Assembly: GCA_012270965.1 (NCBI GenBank)
Contig: JAAXHJ010000048.1
Coordinates: forward strand, 1 to 64,000
DNA: 64,000 bases
Direction of reading: 5' to 3'
DNA from: Candidatus Palauibacter poriticola
GTDB taxonomy: Bacteria; Gemmatimonadota; Gemmatimonadetes; Palauibacterales; Palauibacteraceae
A program made the position numbers and the translations under genes. Positions 28,947 through 59,300 of this stretch are shown one piece after another (the first letter of the stretch is position 1; the number at the start of each line of letters is the position of its first letter). A model generated the notes under the pieces. The model was not told the origin of the DNA, searched no databases, and saw only the letters and a program-made list of their open reading frames with translations.

Positions 28947-29864
28947 CTGATCACCGAGGCGGGGCCCGTAAGAGGACCCCGGCCCGATCTCGCCGACGCG
29001 CTGGAGCGGGGGGAGATCGTCTTCTTCCCCGCGTGTCCGGTGACGCTCCCGCCGAAGCGCAACTTGGTGAGGCTGCGGACGGAACTCCCGAGCCGGTTGC
29101 GGGCGAAGAACGTCAGCTACCACCCCGAGAGCGGACGCCTTCGCGGAGTCGCGTCGCGCGCAGGGATGCGGGAGGCGGTTCTCGACACCCTCACGGCGCA
29201 TGGCGCCAGGGTTCGCGCCTTCCTGAGGGAGTGCATGCCCGCGCTCACCGAGGGATGGACCGTGGGGACGACGAGCTTCCGCCCGATCCAGGAGCGGGGC
29301 CGCGGCCTCCCCGCGCACGCGAGCAACGAGCTGATCCACTTCGATGCCGGTGCCTACGGGGCCACGGACGGGGACCGAATCCTCCGTTTTTTCGTCAACG
29401 TGAACCCGGACGAGGACCGCGTATGGTGTACGAAGGGGACGTTCCCCGATGTGTTCGCGCGGTGCGGGACCGAGGCGGGGGTGGCAGACGGCGGCTCGCT
29501 CGAGCGGGGCCCGGCGGACCGTCTGCGCAGGCGCCTGCTGAGGGGGATCGCGAAGGCGGGGCTGGGTGAGGCGGTGCTGGCGGACTCCAGCCCGTACGAC
29601 CGGCTCATGCGCCGCTTCCACAACTATATGAAGGACACGCCGGCCTTCCAGGAGCGGGACGAGTCGTGGCGGGAGATCCGCTTCCCGCCCTTCTCGGCCT
29701 GGATGGTTCTCACCGACATGGTGAGCCACGCGAGCGTGGCCGGGCAACACGCGCTCGTGGACACCTTCATCCTCCGGCTCGCCGCATGCCGCCGCCCGGA
29801 ACTCGCCCCCATCAACATCCTACGCGGGCGGCAGGGAAACGCCCGAGCGGGGGGGACCGCCTGA
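28947..29864 (+). CDS. Kdo hydroxylase (KdoO)-like family protein; start uncertain
   Basis: DALERGEIVFFPACPVTLP...NVSYHPESGRLRG...TSFRPIQERGRGLPAHASNELIHFDAGAYGATDGDRILRFFVNVNPDEDRVW. Confidence 0.82.
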   Translation: MITEAGPVRGPRPDLADALERGEIVFFPACPVTLPPKRNLVRLRTELPSRLRAKNVSYHPESGRLRGVASRAGMREAVLDTLTAHGARVRAFLRECMPALTEGWTVGTTSFRPIQERGRGLPAHASNELIHFDAGAYGATDGDRILRFFVNVNPDEDRVWCTKGTFPDVFARCGTEAGVADGGSLERGPADRLRRRLLRGIAKAGLGEAVLADSSPYDRLMRRFHNYMKDTPAFQERDESWREIRFPPFSAWMVLTDMVSHASVAGQHALVDTFILRLAACRRPELAPINILRGRQGNARAGGTA

Positions 29865-29945
29865 GGCTGTGGACAAGCCCGAGGCGGGGGAACGACCGAG
29901 GCAGGGGAAACGCCTGAGACGAGGGAAGGGCCCGAGGCGGGGAAC
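29824..29945. repeat. Imperfect ~18-bp tandem repeat spanning the KdoO-like stop codon
   Basis: GCCCGAGCGGGGGGGACC / GCCTGAGGCTGTGGACAA / GCCCGAGGCGGGGGAAC / GACCGAGGCAGGGGAAAC / GCCTGAGACGAGGGAAGG / GCCCGAGGCGGGGAAC. Confidence 0.85.
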
Positions 29946-32190: not shown

Positions 32191-32274
32191 CGCGGGATCG
32201 GCCGGGCAACGCGCCGGGATCGGCGGAGCAACGCGCCGGGATCAGCCGGGTAACGCGCGGAGATCGGCTGGACA
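32191..32274. repeat. ~22-bp tandem repeat in the divergent decarboxylase/SSS intergenic region
   Basis: CGCGCCGGGATCGGCGGAGCAA / CGCGCCGGGATCAGCCGGGTAA plus two flanking degenerate units. Confidence 0.9.
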
Positions 32275-32425
32275 CGCCGTCGGACGCGCCGCACGCACGC
32301 ACCGCCGGACGCGCCGCCGCACGCGCCGGTCGGACGCGGGGCTTGTCTGTCGAGGCGGGCTCCAATCAGATACCGGGTCCGCAAGCCGTCGAGAAGACCG
32401 GCCCGCACCCTAGCCCGAGAGACGG

Positions 32426-33919: not shown

Positions 33920-34435
33920 TCAGGCTCTGATGCGGTTTCGGCCGTCCGTCGCGAGATCGAGGGCGAGCCGACAGCACAGCGACCCTCGGTCCGCTCCATC
34001 CTGCAGTTCGCTCGGCGGCTTCCAGCTCCACTCGGAATACTGGGTGACGCCGGGGACGGGCTGCGGTACGCGGGGCTCTCCCGCCACGATCCGGGCCGCG
34101 TGCAGTCGCATCTCGAGCCGATAGCCCGCGCGGTCGAGGTGGCCCGTGCGGTCGAAGCGGCACGCGCGGTCGAGGTGGCCCGCGCCCAGGCAGCCGAGAT
34201 CCTCCGTCTCCACCCCGAGTTTCTCGCAGCCGATGCGCCGCACGAGCGCCTCGTCCAGCTCACCCTCGGCGTGCGAGCCCGCGGGGAGGCCCCACGCGCC
34301 GGGGAGATCGGGATCGTCAGCGGGGCGGCGCACGAGCAGCCAGCGCGGCGTCTCGCGGGCCGACCCCGGGGCCTCGATTACCAGGGCCAGCGCGGGACGC
34401 GAGGAGCGGGTTCCGGGGCCGCCGTCGCCCATCAT
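33920..34435 (-). CDS. NUDIX hydrolase-like protein with an 18-bp repeat insertion
   Basis: LALVIEAPG...WLLVRRPADDPDLPGAWGLPAGSHAEGELDEALVRRIGCEKLGVE, then GHLDRACRFDRTGHLDRAG repeat. Confidence 0.75.
   Translation of the reverse strand: MMGDGGPGTRSSRPALALVIEAPGSARETPRWLLVRRPADDPDLPGAWGLPAGSHAEGELDEALVRRIGCEKLGVETEDLGCLGAGHLDRACRFDRTGHLDRAGYRLEMRLHAARIVAGEPRVPQPVPGVTQYSEWSWKPPSELQDGADRGSLCCRLALDLATDGRNRIRA
34128..34181. repeat. 18-bp tandem repeat, three copies, within the NUDIX ORF
   Basis: GCGCGGTCGAGGTGGCCC / GTGCGGTCGAAGCGGCAC / GCGCGGTCGAGGTGGCCC. Confidence 0.95.
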
Positions 34436-40559: not shown

Positions 40560-41246
40560 ATGGTCCGGCAATACCGATCAGAGAGGGAAAACCCATTCCG
40601 CGACCCGCGATCGGAGATCGGGACCGCCTTGACCGAACCTGCCGTCACGCTGACCGACTACGGGCTCACCCTGCTCTGCGCCGTACTGGTCTGGCGGGCG
40701 CGCTCGCGCGTGCGGGCCGATCTCCGCCCGTGGGCGATGGGCCTCTTCGCCGGCTCCGGCGCCGCAGCCCTCTTCGGCGGCACCGTACACGGCTTCTTCG
40801 GGGACGCCGCGACGCTCGGATACCGCCTCCTCTGGCCCGCCACGATCCTCACCGTCGGGGCGACCGGGCTCGCGGCCTGGGGGCTGGGCGCGCGAGTCGA
40901 TGGCCGGCCCGCGGGTACGCGGTGGGTGACGCGGCTCGCCGGGCTCGCCTACGCCGCCTACGTCGCCATCGTGCTGGCCGGGTGGCAGGCGTTCGCCGTC
41001 GCGGTCGCCTTCTATCTGCCCGCCGTCATCTATCTCACGGTGCGCTTCGCGCGCGCCTACCGCCGCCGCGCCACCGCGAGCCGGCGGCGGGCGCTGACCG
41101 GCCTCGGGCTCACCTTCGCGGCGGCGGCCATCCAGCAGCTACAGGTCCCGATCCACCCGGTGTGGTTCGACCACAACGCGCTATACCACGTCGTGCAGGC
41201 GGCGGCCTTCATCCTTCTCTATCAGGGCGTGAGCGGCGAAGACTAA
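40560..41246 (+). CDS. Multi-pass membrane protein (DUF6962-like)
   Basis: Six to seven hydrophobic segments: LTDYGLTLLCAVLVW...WAMGLFAGSGAAALFGGTVHGFF...; ends GVSGED*. Confidence 0.75.
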   Translation: MVRQYRSERENPFRDPRSEIGTALTEPAVTLTDYGLTLLCAVLVWRARSRVRADLRPWAMGLFAGSGAAALFGGTVHGFFGDAATLGYRLLWPATILTVGATGLAAWGLGARVDGRPAGTRWVTRLAGLAYAAYVAIVLAGWQAFAVAVAFYLPAVIYLTVRFARAYRRRATASRRRALTGLGLTFAAAAIQQLQVPIHPVWFDHNALYHVVQAAAFILLYQGVSGED

Positions 41247-41275
41247 TGATGCTTCTCCAACGTCAGGGGTGTGCC

Positions 41276-43441
41276 ATGCGTACCGCGATCTTCCCCGGCT
41301 CCCGGCTTTTTGCCGCCGGTTCGGTTCCCGCCGCCGGTTCGGTTCCCGCCGCCGGTGCCGTTCCCGCCGTCGGTTCCGCTCTCGCTGCCGGTGCCGTTCC
41401 CGCTGCGGGTTCCGTTCTCCGGGCCGGTTCCCTTCTCGCTGCCGGTTTCGTTCTCTCCGTCATCCTCTGCGCCGGATTGGCCGCCCAGGAGGGCCGGCCG
41501 ATGACGGTCGAGGACGTCCTCGCCCTCAAGAACCCGTCACAAGTCTCCTTGAGCCCGGACGGACGGTGGGTGGCCTACGTCGTCACGGAACGGGACATGG
41601 AGGAGGACCGTCAGGAAACCAACGTGTGGGTCGTCCCCGCTGCGGGCGCTCCGGCGGAGGTCCGTCAGCTCACCTTCCGCCCCGGATCCGACGATTCACC
41701 GGTCTGGCACCCATCGGGAGAATGGCTCGCCTTCTCCTCCGATCGGGAAGGGACAAGACAGGTCTACGGGATCCGGCCCGACGGCGGCGAGGCGTGGCAG
41801 GTGACGTCCCACGAGACCTCGGTCGGGAGCTTCCGCTTCGCGCCCAACGGCCGGCGGATCGGTTTCGTGGCGAGCCCGTCCGCGACGGAAGCGGACCGCG
41901 AACTCGAGGCCCTGCGCGGCCGCCCGATGGTCTGGGACTCCGTCTACACGGACCAGTGGTCGCGCCTCCACGTTGCCGAACTCGAGGACGATGTGGCCGA
42001 CGAGGGAGTGAGGTGGTCGCCGGACGATCTCCACGTGACGTCCTTCGTATGGTCACCCGACTCGCGAGCCGTCGCCTACGGGGCTCGCTCGTCCCCCGTC
42101 TTGAGGACGACCTACTACGGCGCGACCTACGTGCAGGAGGGCGCGGAAGCGGAGGCCCGGAGCGTCACGGCGATGCCGGGCGGGGAGAATCCGGTGGCGT
42201 GGGACGACGAGGTTGGCCTCATCGTGTCCGGGACGGGGCAGCTCCTCGGAACCTTCAACCGACAGTTGTGGCGCGTGCCGGTCGACGGGGGCGGCGGCGC
42301 GCCGGAGCCGGTGTCGCTCACCGCCGGGCTGGATGCGAACGCGAACCTCGTCCACATCGATGGCTCGCGGCTCATCGTCTCAGCGGCGCGACGCACCGGA
42401 GCCACCGTGTACCGGATCCCGCTCGCCGACGGTGCCGCGGCGGGACCGCCGGACGATCTGACCGATGGCCGGCGCTACTACTCCGGCACCTCCGCCTCGG
42501 CGGACGGGCGCTTTCTCGCACTCACCGCCGAGGACGGCATGGCGCCGCCGGACCTCTTCATCACCCCGATGGACGCCTTCCGCCCCGAGCGCCTGACCGA
42601 CCTGAACCCGCGGGTGGCCAGCCTCGCACTCGGCGCGCAGCGGGTCGAGTCGTGGCGTTCGCGAGCCGGCGGCGAGGAAATCGAAGGCGTACTCACCCTT
42701 CCCGCCGGGTACGAGGAGGGGGACCGCGTCCCGCTGGTCCTCGTGATCCACGGCGGCCCGGCCGGGATCTCCTCGGATCGCTTCAACGCGACGCGGGGCG
42801 CCTACCCGGTGCAGGTGTACGCGGGGATGGGGTTCGCCGTACTGCAGCCGAACTACCGGGGTTCGAGCGGCTACGGGGAGCGTTTTCGGGGTCTCAACCG
42901 CGGCGACATCTCCGGCCGGGACTGGGTCGATATCGACTCCGGCGTGGATGCGATGGTCGAGCGCGGGATCGCGGACCCCGACCGGCTGGCCGTGAGCGGA
43001 TGGAGCTTCGGAGGACACCACACCTACTGGGGCATCACGCAGACCGACCGCTTCAAGGCGGCGAGCGCGGGGGCCGGCGCGAACGATCTCATCTCCATGT
43101 ACTCGCAGACGGACATCCCCGAGTTCTACCACACCTACCTGGGTCCGAAACCGTGGGAGGACTGGGATCTTTACGAGGAGCGCTCCGCCTACCGCCATGT
43201 TGAAAACGTGACGACACCGCTGTTGATCCAAGTGGGCGAGAGGGACGAGCGGGTTCCCGCCGAACAGAGCATCCAGTTCTTCGAGGCCGTGCGCGCCATC
43301 GGCAGGGCTCCGACGACTCTTGTCCTGTATCCGGATCAACCACATGGTGTTAGATCTCCGCGCCTACAGCGGGATCTCATGTCGAGAAACGTGGAGTGGC
43401 TCACCCGCTGGGTTTTGGAAGCGGAGGCGCTGGTGCCGTGA
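41276..43441 (+). CDS. Secreted S9 family peptidase with repeat-expanded signal region
   Basis: PD40 repeats; LVLVIHGGPAGISSDRFNATRGAYPVQVYAGMGFAVLQPNYRGSSGYGERF; GWSFGGHHTYW. N-terminus is eight 6-aa repeats. Confidence 0.95.
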   Translation: MRTAIFPGSRLFAAGSVPAAGSVPAAGAVPAVGSALAAGAVPAAGSVLRAGSLLAAGFVLSVILCAGLAAQEGRPMTVEDVLALKNPSQVSLSPDGRWVAYVVTERDMEEDRQETNVWVVPAAGAPAEVRQLTFRPGSDDSPVWHPSGEWLAFSSDREGTRQVYGIRPDGGEAWQVTSHETSVGSFRFAPNGRRIGFVASPSATEADRELEALRGRPMVWDSVYTDQWSRLHVAELEDDVADEGVRWSPDDLHVTSFVWSPDSRAVAYGARSSPVLRTTYYGATYVQEGAEAEARSVTAMPGGENPVAWDDEVGLIVSGTGQLLGTFNRQLWRVPVDGGGGAPEPVSLTAGLDANANLVHIDGSRLIVSAARRTGATVYRIPLADGAAAGPPDDLTDGRRYYSGTSASADGRFLALTAEDGMAPPDLFITPMDAFRPERLTDLNPRVASLALGAQRVESWRSRAGGEEIEGVLTLPAGYEEGDRVPLVLVIHGGPAGISSDRFNATRGAYPVQVYAGMGFAVLQPNYRGSSGYGERFRGLNRGDISGRDWVDIDSGVDAMVERGIADPDRLAVSGWSFGGHHTYWGITQTDRFKAASAGAGANDLISMYSQTDIPEFYHTYLGPKPWEDWDLYEERSAYRHVENVTTPLLIQVGERDERVPAEQSIQFFEAVRAIGRAPTTLVLYPDQPHGVRSPRLQRDLMSRNVEWLTRWVLEAEALVP
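41312..41455. repeat. 18-bp tandem repeat, eight copies, within the S9 signal region
   Basis: GCCGCCGGTTCGGTTCCC twice exactly, then six diverged 18-bp units. Confidence 0.97.
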
Positions 43442-43473: not shown

Positions 43474-44328
43474 ATGAAGGGACGCCCGCGGAGGAGGAGG
43501 ATCATGCGACGGCCCCGTCGGAGTCTGTGCGGTCTCGCGCTCGTGGCGAGCGCCCTCGCGGCCACCGGTCGGGCCGCGGCGGCGGCGCAGGAGGAACCCG
43601 AGGTCACCGAGGCCGGTCTCGCGCGCGGCGAGATGTTCTATCAGGCCCACTGCGGCCGCTGCCACGGCATGCTCGGCCACGGGGGAGAGGGGCCGAGCCT
43701 GGCGCGTCCCACCCTGCCCCGCGCGCCGGACCACGCATCGCTCGTCCGGGTGATCCGGCGCGGGATCCCCGGGACCGGCATGCCCGGAACGAGATCCAAC
43801 CTCGTGTCGGATCTGGAGGTCGGCCTCGTGGCCGCCTACGTCCGCACGCTGGGACGGGACGCCGTCGTGGAGGTCGCGGGGGACGCGGCGCGCGGGCGGG
43901 AGGTGTTCGCCACCGCCGGCGACTGCTACTCCTGTCACGTCGTCAACGGCCGCGGAACGGGGATCGGCCCCGAACTCACGGGCATCGGGCTTCGGCGCGG
44001 CGTCGACTACCTCTACGCGTCGCTGCGGACGCCCGACTCGCAGTTGCCGGTCTCCAGGCGGGGCATCCTGCGCGGATTCAGGGGATACCTGCCGATCCGC
44101 GCGGTGACGCGCGAGGGCCGCGTCATCACGGGCATGCGGGTGAACGAGGACGACTTCACGATCCAGTTGCGGTCGATCTCCGGCCGCACGGTCTCGCTTC
44201 GCAAGGAAGATCTCGTGGAACTCGAGAAACAGTTCGATCATTCTCTGATGCCCGCCGTGGAGGAGATGACGGAGGCGGACATCGACGATCTCGTCGCCTT
44301 CCTCGCCGACCTCGGAGGAGGATCATGA
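43474..44328 (+). CDS. Di-heme c-type cytochrome
   Basis: Two heme motifs: HCGRCHG and DCYSCHV; signal peptide. Start 43474 or 43504. Confidence 0.92.
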   Translation: MKGRPRRRRIMRRPRRSLCGLALVASALAATGRAAAAAQEEPEVTEAGLARGEMFYQAHCGRCHGMLGHGGEGPSLARPTLPRAPDHASLVRVIRRGIPGTGMPGTRSNLVSDLEVGLVAAYVRTLGRDAVVEVAGDAARGREVFATAGDCYSCHVVNGRGTGIGPELTGIGLRRGVDYLYASLRTPDSQLPVSRRGILRGFRGYLPIRAVTREGRVITGMRVNEDDFTIQLRSISGRTVSLRKEDLVELEKQFDHSLMPAVEEMTEADIDDLVAFLADLGGGS

Positions 44329-45977
44329 CCCGACGCATACCTCTCCCCTCGCCGGCCTCGGCCGTGGCGGCCTCCGCGCTCGCGGCGGGGGCCCTCCTGT
44401 TCGGCGCCTCCCTCGCGGACGCGGTCGCCCAGGTGTCGTTCGAGCGCCTCGTGAACGCGGAAGACGAGCCGCACAACTGGCTCACGTATTCGGGCAACTA
44501 CGCCTCCCACCGTTTCTCCGCCCTCGACCAGATTCACCGCGGCAACGTCGGGGATCTCAAAGTGCTGTGGGCCTACCAGATGAGCGGCGGGCTCATCGAG
44601 ACGACGCCGATCGTGGTGGACGGCGTAATGTACGTGACGGAACCGCCGAGCAACGTGAGCGCGCTCGACGCCCGCTCCGGACGCCGCCTCTGGCACTGGT
44701 CCGCCGAGGTCCCGGCCTCGACAAAAAACATCGGATTCCCCCGCGTGAACCGCGGCGTCGCGATCCTCGGCGAAACCGTGTTCGTGGGCACGCTCGACGC
44801 CCGCCTCGTGGCGCTCGACGCCCGCTCCGGCGCCGTCCGCTGGGAGGTGGACGTCGCGGACAACGACCTCGGGTTCTCCATCACGCTCGCCCCGCTCGCC
44901 CTCGACGGAAGGGTCATCGTGGGCATGTCCGGCGCGGAGGCGGGGGCGAATGGGTTCATCGACGCGTACGACCCCGCGACCGGGGAACGGCTGTGGCGGA
45001 CCTACACGATTCCGAGCCCGGGCGAGCCGGGCAGCGAGACGTGGGGCGGCGACAGCTGGGAGCACGGCGGCGGTTCCACCTGGCTCACCGGCTCCTACGA
45101 TCCCGAACTCGACCTCCTGTACTGGCCGACCGGCAATCCGGCCCCCGACTGGAACGGGGACGCGCGACCCGGCGACAACCTTTACACGAACTGCATCCTC
45201 GCCCTCGATCCCGACACGGGGGAGATGCGGTGGTGGTTCCAGTACACGCCGCACGACACGCACGACTGGGACGCGACCGAGATCCAGGTGCTCGTCGACG
45301 CGGAGTGGGAGGGAGAGCCGCGCAAGCTGCTCGTAACGGCGAACCGGAACGCCTTCTACTACGTGCTCGACCGCGAGACCGGCGAGTTCCTGCGCGGCGT
45401 GGAGTACTCGAAGCAGACGTGGGCCGAGGGCCTCGACGAGAGCGGCCGGCCGATCGTAATCCCGGGCACCGAACCCACCGAGGAGGGGAACCTCGTGTGG
45501 CCCAGCCTTCAGGGAACCGCGAACTGGTTCAGCCCCTCCTACAGCCCGGACACGGGGCTCTTCTACCAGGCGACCCGAATCATGGGCGCCATCTACTACA
45601 AGACCGAGGTCGAATACGAGCCCGGCCAGCCGTTTCTCGGCGGCGGCGAGCAGGCGCTGTCCGGCGACGAGGCGAGCGGCGCCGTGAAGGCGCTCGACGT
45701 GCTCACTGGCAAACTACGGTGGGAGTTTCCGCTGCTCTCCCCTCCGTGGGCCGGCGTGATGGCCACGCGAGGCGGCCTCGTCTTCGGCGGAAGCAACGAG
45801 GGCAACATCTTCGCCCTCGACGCCGAGACGGGAGAGCCGTTGTGGGACTTCCAAGCCGGTGGCGGCGTCCGCACCAATCCCATGTCGTTCGAGGTGGACG
45901 GCGAACAGCGCGTGGCCACCGCCGCGGGCGGAGTCCTGTGGGTGTTCGGGTTACCCCGGATGCACGCCGGGTCGTAA
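44325..45977 (+). CDS. PQQ-dependent dehydrogenase
   Basis: NWLTYSGNYASHRFSALDQIHRGNVGDLKVLWAYQ...; ATGA overlap with the cytochrome gene. Confidence 0.94.
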   Translation: MTRRIPLPSPASAVAASALAAGALLFGASLADAVAQVSFERLVNAEDEPHNWLTYSGNYASHRFSALDQIHRGNVGDLKVLWAYQMSGGLIETTPIVVDGVMYVTEPPSNVSALDARSGRRLWHWSAEVPASTKNIGFPRVNRGVAILGETVFVGTLDARLVALDARSGAVRWEVDVADNDLGFSITLAPLALDGRVIVGMSGAEAGANGFIDAYDPATGERLWRTYTIPSPGEPGSETWGGDSWEHGGGSTWLTGSYDPELDLLYWPTGNPAPDWNGDARPGDNLYTNCILALDPDTGEMRWWFQYTPHDTHDWDATEIQVLVDAEWEGEPRKLLVTANRNAFYYVLDRETGEFLRGVEYSKQTWAEGLDESGRPIVIPGTEPTEEGNLVWPSLQGTANWFSPSYSPDTGLFYQATRIMGAIYYKTEVEYEPGQPFLGGGEQALSGDEASGAVKALDVLTGKLRWEFPLLSPPWAGVMATRGGLVFGGSNEGNIFALDAETGEPLWDFQAGGGVRTNPMSFEVDGEQRVATAAGGVLWVFGLPRMHAGS

Positions 45978-56306: not shown

Positions 56307-59300
56307 CTATAGCGCCAGCACGATCCCTCGGGCCGGTTCTCCGTTGGCCCGTTCGATGGCTTCGACGTAGCAGGCGACCTGCGCCTCGTATTGGGTGCGC
56401 GCCGCGGCGGGGCGGCGGTCCGTCTTGTAGTCGACGACCGTCCAGAGGGGGCCGGACCCGGTGACCTCGCGGAAGGCGAGGTCCGCGACGCCCTCGACGA
56501 TGGCCTCGTCCCTCCCGCCATCCCGCTCCCCAGCCGGTGCCGCGGCCTCACGCACGTGGAATACCGGGACCTCGCGCTGGACCGCGCCGGGCCCGGAGAC
56601 CAGGGCGGCGCGCGCCCGGTCGAGCACTTCGTGTTCCAGCGCGCGCGCCGCGAGAGCCGCCGCCGCGACGATTTCGGTCTCGGGACTTCCCAGCGTGCGC
56701 CCCAGAGTTCCCGCCAGCCCGTCGAGCGCGCCGGAGTTCGCGTCTAGAGGGGCCTCGGCGAGTATGCGATGGACGAGATCGCCGAATCGCTCGCCGCCCG
56801 GACGCCCCGCCCCTTCCGCCCCCTCGGCTCCCGGCCGCGGCACGTCGATCCACGCGACATGCGTGTCCCCGTGGGCCGCGGCGTCAGCTTTGTGCGCGTC
56901 GTCGAGCTTGGCGGCGTCGTCGGGCTTGGCGGCGTCGTCGGGCTTGGCCGATTCGGCGGCGCGGCGCGCGATCGCCCCCGCCGTCACCACCGACATCGTG
57001 CGGCGTCCCCCCGCCTCCAACTTCGCCGCGCGCGACGCCTGCCACTCCCGGTGCGCGCCCATCCCCGCCTCGAAATCCAGAGTGGGTTGTTCCTCCCTCT
57101 CGACCTCGAGCAAGCGGCGTTGGCGATCACCCGCCCCGGGGTGCGCGTCGAGATCCAGCGCCGCGGGATCCCACCACACGACGTCCGTTCCCGCTTCGGC
57201 GGCATGCAGCCCCGGCGCGACCGAGTCGCGCGGCGCGCGGTGCTGGCCGCCCTTCCCATCCGGACGGTCCAGCACCGACTCCGCGCGGAAGGCCGGGGCT
57301 CCCAGGCTCTCGGCGGAGGACGGCTGGCGGCGCGCGCCGCGGGGCGGATACACCGCCGGATTCAGCGACTCGAGCCACCATTCGCGGTCTTCCTGGGAGA
57401 ATCCGCCGTGGCCATCGCGGCCGTCTCCGAGGGCCGGCACCACGAGCAAATCGCGCGCCCGCGTGGCCGCTACGTACGCGAGCCGGTCCGCCTCGGCCAT
57501 TTCCCGGCGCCGCTCCGTCTCGGCGTTGTCCAGGATGTCGCGCGGGGTCGCGCCGCAGAGGCGCTGGGCCCATAGGCGCCGCCCCGCATCCATGTGCTGC
57601 GACGGCGGCTCGTGCGCCGCCGGGCAGGTCATGTCCGCCAGGATGACGACGGGGAACTCTAGGCCCTTGGCCTTGTGCACCGTCATCATCCTCACGCCTT
57701 CGGTCCCCTCCTCGACGATGGGCGCCTCCTCGGACTGCCCGCGTTCGGCTTCGTCCTCGAGGCGGTCCAGGAACGCTCGAAACGAAGGGCTGCCCCGGCG
57801 CTCGAAGACGCGCGCCCGGTCGACGAGCCGGAGGACGTTGGCCAGCGCCTGCTCGCCCGTCGGCCAGATCGCGATGCCCGCGTGGGCGCGCGCGGCCGAG
57901 AGCAGACGCCGGAGCGTCTCCGGGATCGGACGCCGGTTCCGCTGCCGGTGGAGATCGCCAAGGAGCCCGAGCACGGTCGCCACGTCCCGCAGTTCGGGTT
58001 TCAGCGCCGTTACGTCCCTGCGGCCGTTCTCGCCGTTGTCGCCATCCGTCTCCCACCCCGCGAGCGGATGCAGCGGACCCGCGTCAACGCCGAACTCGAA
58101 CAGCGCCCGGTCGCCGAGCGAAAAGAGCGGACCCCGGAGGGCGGCGTACACCGCCAGCCGGTCGTCCGGCCACTCGATGGCCGTGAGCGCGTTCCGTACG
58201 GCAAGCACCTCCTCGCGATCATGGTACGAGCGGCCGCCGACCAGTACATGGGGAACGGCGCGGGCCTCGAGCGCGCGCACATAGGGGCGCGTCACGTCCT
58301 CCCCCCACTTCTGAAAGCGCCGGAAGAGGAGGCAGATGTGTCGGGCCTGAACCCGCACCGGACGCTCCGGATGATTCCGTTCCGTGACGACCCAGCCCGA
58401 CTCGCCGACCAGCCAGCGCACCATCTCCGCGACCGCGGCGGGGAGGGATTCCTCGACCGCGGTTCCCCAGACCCTTCCCAGTCTTCCGTACGGTCTCGGG
58501 ACCGGCAGGGCGATGATGGCGGGCTGGCTCCCGACATCGCCGCGGAAGCGCGCGAGCGGCACATACTCCGCCTGGCTTCCATCCTCGGCCGCCTTCATCC
58601 GCGTCGCGAAGGCCCCGTTCACGGCGGCCTGCAAACGGGGCTGCGACCGGAAGCTCGTGGACAGGTGCAGCACCCGCGCCCGGGCGTCCCTCAGGCGGCG
58701 TTTGGTCTTCTCGTACAGCATCACGTCCGCCCGGCGGAAGCGGTAGATCGACTGCTTCGGATCCCCGACGACGAAGAGCTTACCGCTCGCGGGCACGATG
58801 TGCTCCGGCCGCGCCTCCTCCGGATCCTCGCCGCACAGGAGGAGGAGGATCTCGACCTGCAGCGGATCGGTGTCCTGGAACTCGTCGACGAAAAAGCGCG
58901 TGAAGCGTTGCCGGTAGTGCCTCCGGATCTCCGGAATGTCTCGCAGGAGGTCCCTCGCCCGGATCAGAAGGTCCACGAAGTCGAGGCATCCGTCGCGCCG
59001 CTTGACCCGCTCGTACCGCTCCGTCACGGGCCAGAGTTCGTCCCGCAGGTGCGCAGCCAGCTCCGCATCCGCCGTCTGCAGGATCTCCTCGACCTCCTCC
59101 CGGACCGCGTCGCGGCGCGCGACGACGTCGGCCTTCGCGAGTCCGCCGCCGAAGTCCCGCGAGCGAAAGCCGCGCCAGAACCAGCCGCGCCAGCGGGCAC
59201 GCACGAAAGACCGCAGCCAACCCTCGAGATAGTCGTAGTCGCGGCCGCACGTCTTCTCCCTCCGCGCGATCTCGCGCACGCCGCGTTCGATGTGGCGCAG

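Follow-up and report, generated by a model that had tools for sequence, protein, structure and literature searches.

The signal peptide of a secreted S9-family peptidase of Candidatus Palauibacter poriticola was found to carry eight contiguous in-frame 18-bp units, whereas each of 12 congeneric (Candidatus Palauibacter) orthologues, 88-91% identical to it, had exactly one unit of the AAGSVL type. This array is probably one visible case of a lineage-specific burst of minisatellites, which were retained where they could be tolerated. The window that was analysed comprised 64,000 nucleotides (contig JAAXHJ010000048.1, positions 1 to 64,000); positions given without a locus label refer to it, and the features described here are listed in Table 1.

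Table 1. Features of the peptidase gene and of four further expanded export signals
Feature	Position	Strand	Basis or remark
Likely ribosome-binding site, AGGGG	41265..41269	+	Spacing to the ATG kept in 12/12 orthologues; putative role
S9-family secreted peptidase gene P0001, 721 residues	41276..43441	+	ORF, Pfam Peptidase_S9 and PD40, orthologues
n-region, MRTAIFPGSRLF	41276..41311	+	Aligns with MRxxxFPxSRVL of the orthologues
Array, eight 18-bp units	41312..41455	+	TRF, shuffles; one unit per congeneric orthologue
Units 1-6, weakly hydrophobic, bearing proline and glycine	41312..41419	+	Hydropathy; putative passive spacer
Arg49 (codon 1 of unit 7), which adds a positive charge before the core	41420..41422	+	Sequence
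Likely functional hydrophobic core, LLAAGFVLSVIL	41432..41467	+	Hydropathy peak of the signal
LAA before the predicted signal peptidase cut (between AA and QE)	41477..41485	+	Aligns with LDA or LFA before QE in the orthologues
Mature peptidase	41486..43441	+	Ser codon 43004-43006, Asp 43244-43246, His 43343-43345
Sortilin-like protein, n-region of about eight RVRPS-type units	L061 18155-18273 (G000:C27 102155-102273)		Short plain signal in congeners
S9 peptidase, signal lengthened in frame by repeats	L063 11641-11718		Congeners without the extra length
Secreted protein, signal lengthened in frame by repeats	L060 17203-17264		Congeners without the extra length
SurA-like isomerase, signal lengthened in frame by repeats	L096 5889-5951		Congeners without the extra length

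Expansion of the array from one unit to eight

Direct reading in the frame of the ATG at 41276 confirmed the eight contiguous units reported in a first-pass annotation of this DNA, and their translations also agreed with it (AAGSVP, AAGSVP, AAGAVP, AVGSAL, AAGAVP, AAGSVL, RAGSLL and AAGFVL). TRF placed the array at 41312-41453 with a period of 18, 7.9 copies and a score of 163, the highest in the window. Any two units were identical at 12 to 18 of their 18 positions, and self-matching at a lag of 18 scored 78, whereas 5000 codon shuffles averaged 13.7 and never exceeded 32 (z = 22.7). A coding minisatellite is recognised by tandem units of at least 10 bp beyond chance and by a copy number that differs between relatives, and both features were found here (8 units versus 1 in 12 species).

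The span between the flanks of the array was 126 bp longer than in the congener G005, which is exactly seven units, and an equivalent ATG start preceded by the same AGGGG was present in all 12 orthologues. Copy number was thus not constant across the orthologues, in keeping with the earlier proposal that the export signal had been enlarged by in-frame minisatellite expansion. The whole signal measured 70 residues here versus 28, 32 or 36 in the orthologues, the longer of which had extra 12-bp repeats (SVLL or SVAL) separate from the 18-bp unit. In a tree of the mature part of the protein the source genome stood alone on a long terminal branch, so the expansion was specific to this genome among the sampled species.

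A start codon downstream of the array, which would place the repeats outside the protein, was also considered. The in-frame starts nearby were ATG at 41246, 41249 and 41276 upstream of the array and TTG at 41477 and ATG at 41501 downstream, with none inside it. Neither downstream codon would leave a signal peptide, and the upstream ATG is conserved in all orthologues; no usable start was therefore found 3' of the array.

The identity of the units to their consensus, in 5' to 3' order, was 17, 17, 17, 15, 16, 15, 13 and 15 of 18, and the earlier description of the 5' end as the cleanest was upheld. Unit 6 was the nearest to the single unit of the orthologues (mean 15.7/18, the average of units 1-3 being 13.6/18), and units 1 and 2 did not differ from one another and resembled the orthologous unit less, so growth has probably been most recent at the 5' end, where the near-identical copies would be the youngest. 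Codon differences between units comprised 60 nonsynonymous and 24 synonymous changes, suggesting that the substitutions from unit to unit are near-neutral and close to what little constraint would give. As units of 18 bp preserve the frame, there would be no on-off switching by frameshift.

Layout of the signal peptide

Composition, hydropathy and alignment with the orthologues, from which the Sec/signal peptidase I features were judged, agreed in placing an N-terminal export signal on the peptidase, as previously annotated, with a charged n-region, a hydrophobic core and small residues before the cut. Among windows of 12 residues, hydropathy peaked at LLAAGFVLSVIL (residues 53-64, mean Kyte-Doolittle value 2.77), which includes the ancestral tail; the top windows of the orthologues ranged from 2.17 to 2.78, so that the core of the source genome was equal to or above theirs, within 0.01. 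Windows over units 1-6 scored about 0.7-1.5, and four prolines lie in these units. The earlier suggestion that the functional h-region itself had grown was not supported, because the most hydrophobic 12-mer sits behind Arg49 and units 1-6 are only weakly hydrophobic and interrupted by those prolines. The core is nonetheless not wholly ancestral, since its stretch in unit 8 (AAGFVL) belongs to one of the repeat copies. From this layout we infer that the C-terminal end works as an ordinary signal peptide and that the residues ahead of it serve as a passive spacer.

The peptidase gene and its neighbours

The open reading frame was intact from the ATG at 41276 to the stop at 43441. The identification of the product as an S9-family peptidase was borne out by Pfam PF00326 (E = 4.6e-47; 160.7 bits versus a cut-off of 22.6), with a PD40 propeller repeat assigned alongside the Peptidase_S9 domain, and the catalytic motifs GWSFGG, GERDERVP and PDQPHG occurred in this order at matching places in 13 species. 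Assignment to Dpp5 (NCBIfam equivalog) was rejected, the score being 198.2 against a cut-off of 900 bits; as P0001 did not reach the cut-off for any of the NCBIfam equivalogs that it touched, its classification stops at S9-family secreted peptidase.

From MTVEDVL to the stop codon the protein measured 646 residues in 13/13 species, without length change, and dN/dS of the mature part was 0.11-0.14 against each congener: the enzyme is under purifying selection. Together with the near-neutral differences between units, this means that the enzyme has been kept while the array has been close to free. Just downstream (43543-45977) lie genes resembling, by inspection, a c-type cytochrome and a PQQ-type dehydrogenase, and the signal of the latter also has a 15-bp repeat (44346-44386).

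Tandem arrays across the source genome

The source genome (G000) is a single draft MAG of 3.56 Mb in 99 contigs; the survey, by TRF together with a simple gene caller, covered 0.92 Mb of it, the gene and signal callers being home-made. Strong arrays, defined by a TRF score of at least 100, numbered 77 in 0.92 Mb (84/Mb) here versus 5 in 1.49 Mb (3.3/Mb) in 16 congeners pooled, an excess of about 25-fold; the comparison sequence came mostly from G009 (0.82 Mb), G003 (0.23 Mb) and G005 (0.15 Mb), most congeners being sampled by about 10-30 kb each. The G005 sample was partly N-masked; only unmasked bases entered its array density, and its signal peptides were left out of the counts. The excess was spread over most of the sampled contigs. 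A CRISPR array with the 36-base repeat GCTTCAATGAGGCCGGGGCGGATCCGCCCCGGAAAG was noted at L106 11747-13476 (G000:C65), and its exclusion removed only three strong arrays.

Flanking sequence could be located in a congener for 50 arrays (score of at least 60); 41 of these were longer in the source genome, 5 equal and 4 shorter, and the reciprocal test with arrays of G009 or G003 gave no such length bias, although few (12) could be placed. Further arrays of the window lie at 29830-29944, 32193-32338, 34124-34185 and 56877-56948, and those starting at 32193, 34124 and 56877 were longer here than in G005.

Periods that are multiples of three made up 73/77 (95%) of the arrays deep in genes, 53/84 (63%) near gene starts and 11/25 (44%) outside genes, and the density of arrays per Mb was 112, 400 and 1188 in the same three places. 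This pattern argues for mutation pressure acting everywhere and selection removing the arrays that are harmful.

Several explanations were discarded. Loss of mismatch repair was rejected as a cause of the burst, MutS and MutL being present in 17/17 genomes of the genus. RecJ was not found in 14/17 genomes (it was found only in G011, G015 and G016) and SbcD passed the cut-off in 2/17 (G009 and G010); as most genomes of the genus share these absences, they are not specific to the source species. Mobile spread of the unit was rejected as well, because no second array of the 18-bp unit occurred in the source genome, whose other arrays have different units. A search for the single unit with up to 3 mismatches gave 44 scattered matches in both orientations, 8 of them being the array itself, and 12 with the reversed control; the weak matches inspected in G013, G001, G008 and others included no copy of the array.

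Export signals as tolerant sites

Tandem duplications in frame, whose significance was judged by a codon-shuffle null, affected 10-12% of signal-peptide windows, 2-3% of mature windows and about 1% of internal membrane windows overall. With 40-codon windows, which can extend upstream of the true start, the first set gave 12.4% for signals versus 2.0% for mature parts and 1.3% for internal membrane segments (Fisher p of 2e-7 and 5e-6, respectively), and when contigs were joined for a second run, the values were 9.9%, 2.8% and 0.5%. Restriction to the last 28 codons gave 5.9%, 1.6% and 0% in the first set and 5.8%, 2.7% and 0.5% in the second. The values for G009 with 40-codon windows were 2.9%, 1.3% and 1.9%. 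The peptidase described here did not create the enrichment, as it was absent from the listed hits of the first set, its start lying beyond the limit of that search. Export signals are thus more tolerant of tandem expansions than the rest of the protein.

Four further signals were expanded here, the expansion being absent in congeners (Table 1); they were picked for being repetitive in this genome and serve as illustrations, not as a test. A lipoprotein signal with a 12-bp unit (LPLL; L078 2244-2276, compared with L077 and L112) differed in unit count between G008 and G000 and had none in G001, so repeat changes in signals occur in congeners too.

Origin and retention of the array

The lengthening of this signal may be pictured as follows. 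The array is probably a coding minisatellite derived from a single ancestral copy of the 18-bp unit (AAGSVL), which stood where the hydrophobic part of a Sec-type signal begins; it would have grown by slippage or unequal exchange, as part of a genome-wide burst of expansion in one Palauibacter lineage. The array would survive because cleavage after export removes the signal, which may tolerate extra in-frame residues that are mostly uncharged. Export would most likely still depend on the C-terminal part (Arg49, LLAAGFVLSVIL and GLAA before the cut at Q), the earlier copies acting as a passive N-terminal spacer. More tentatively, and with slightly less than even confidence, we propose a lineage-wide tendency towards expansion of repeats of about 12-60 bp, some 25-fold above congeners although MutS and MutL were kept, in which signal peptides would be a main place where surviving arrays are seen, many of them having been lengthened in frame by duplication within this one species, and mature enzymes would stay fixed.

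The first-pass annotation had proposed that copy number might tune export, and selection on a varying unit number that would determine how efficiently the peptidase is exported would fit the position of the in-frame unit next to the hydrophobic core and the variation of signal length within the genus through the separate 12-bp repeat. Tuning was not supported overall, and we consider this adaptive reading improbable, because the array occurs in one species only, similar expansions are found all over its genome, the hydropathy of the core is like that of the orthologues, and the units differ in a near-neutral way (60:24).

About as improbable, and marginally more so, is a functional extended signal comparable to the extended signal peptide region of autotransporters. 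The 70 residues, of which the C-terminal part resembles a complete signal behind Arg49, do reproduce the two-part layout of the published model (PMC2805444), but the extension was absent from 12/12 congeneric orthologues and is thus not conserved, the differences between units look unconstrained, and neither Pfam nor NCBIfam revealed an autotransporter or two-partner (type V) domain in P0001.

It is very unlikely that an error of metagenome assembly created the array or the number of its copies. The data come from a single MAG and tandem repeats are prone to misassembly, but this usually takes the form of collapse (PMC6868369), which would understate the count and not overstate it; moreover, the units are diverged, the excess lies on most sampled contigs, and periods follow the reading frame within genes and not outside them, as an error would not do. 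Least likely of all is an RNA element folding in the mRNA to control translation, since the predicted folding of 41300-41470, stronger than that of shuffles (z = -2.9), is probably due to the partly self-complementary unit, which may fold well by construction when repeated, and there was neither an Rfam match nor a relative with the array for covariation.

Significance of the burst and comparison with known systems

Retention of burst products where they are tolerated, the reading that we prefer, would give access to a process rarely caught in the act, the growth of signal peptides, which are known to be loose in sequence. The genus offers a before-and-after series of the same enzyme with signals of 28, 32, 36 and 70 residues built with two repeat units. 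As the sampled sister species lack the burst (84 versus 3.3 arrays/Mb), it also provides a clean comparison for the stability of minisatellites in bacteria. If the lineage-wide tendency proposed above is true, the source species, which appears to be sponge-associated, would represent a natural experiment on the freedom of signal peptides and point to an undiscovered determinant of bacterial minisatellite stability.

The enzyme itself resembles bacterial S9 peptidases (prolyl oligopeptidase family; 8wt1) in its Peptidase_S9 domain, propeller repeat and Ser/Asp/His motifs, and scores below the Dpp5 equivalog cut-off (198 versus 900 bits). Its signal shares with the long two-part bacterial signals of autotransporters (PMC2805444) an unusual length and a C-terminal part resembling an ordinary signal peptide; unlike them, it is built of repeats, is not conserved in orthologues and belongs to a peptidase without type V secretion domains. 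The signal peptide length polymorphism of human apolipoprotein B (PMC3844249) is likewise an in-frame length change within the signal of an otherwise unchanged secreted protein, but it is a small two-allele human polymorphism of disputed effects, whereas here 42 added residues are fixed in one bacterial genome. Within the limited search made of the open-access literature, no bacterial signal peptide was described as built from a minisatellite. In-frame minisatellites within bacterial genes are known (PMC2884548), and the array resembles these intragenic minisatellites or VNTRs in its in-frame units, in a copy number that differs between relatives and in the conservation of the rest of the gene; it differs from the reported cases consulted, mostly in surface proteins, in occupying an export signal that is cleaved and in belonging to a genome with a broad excess of such arrays.
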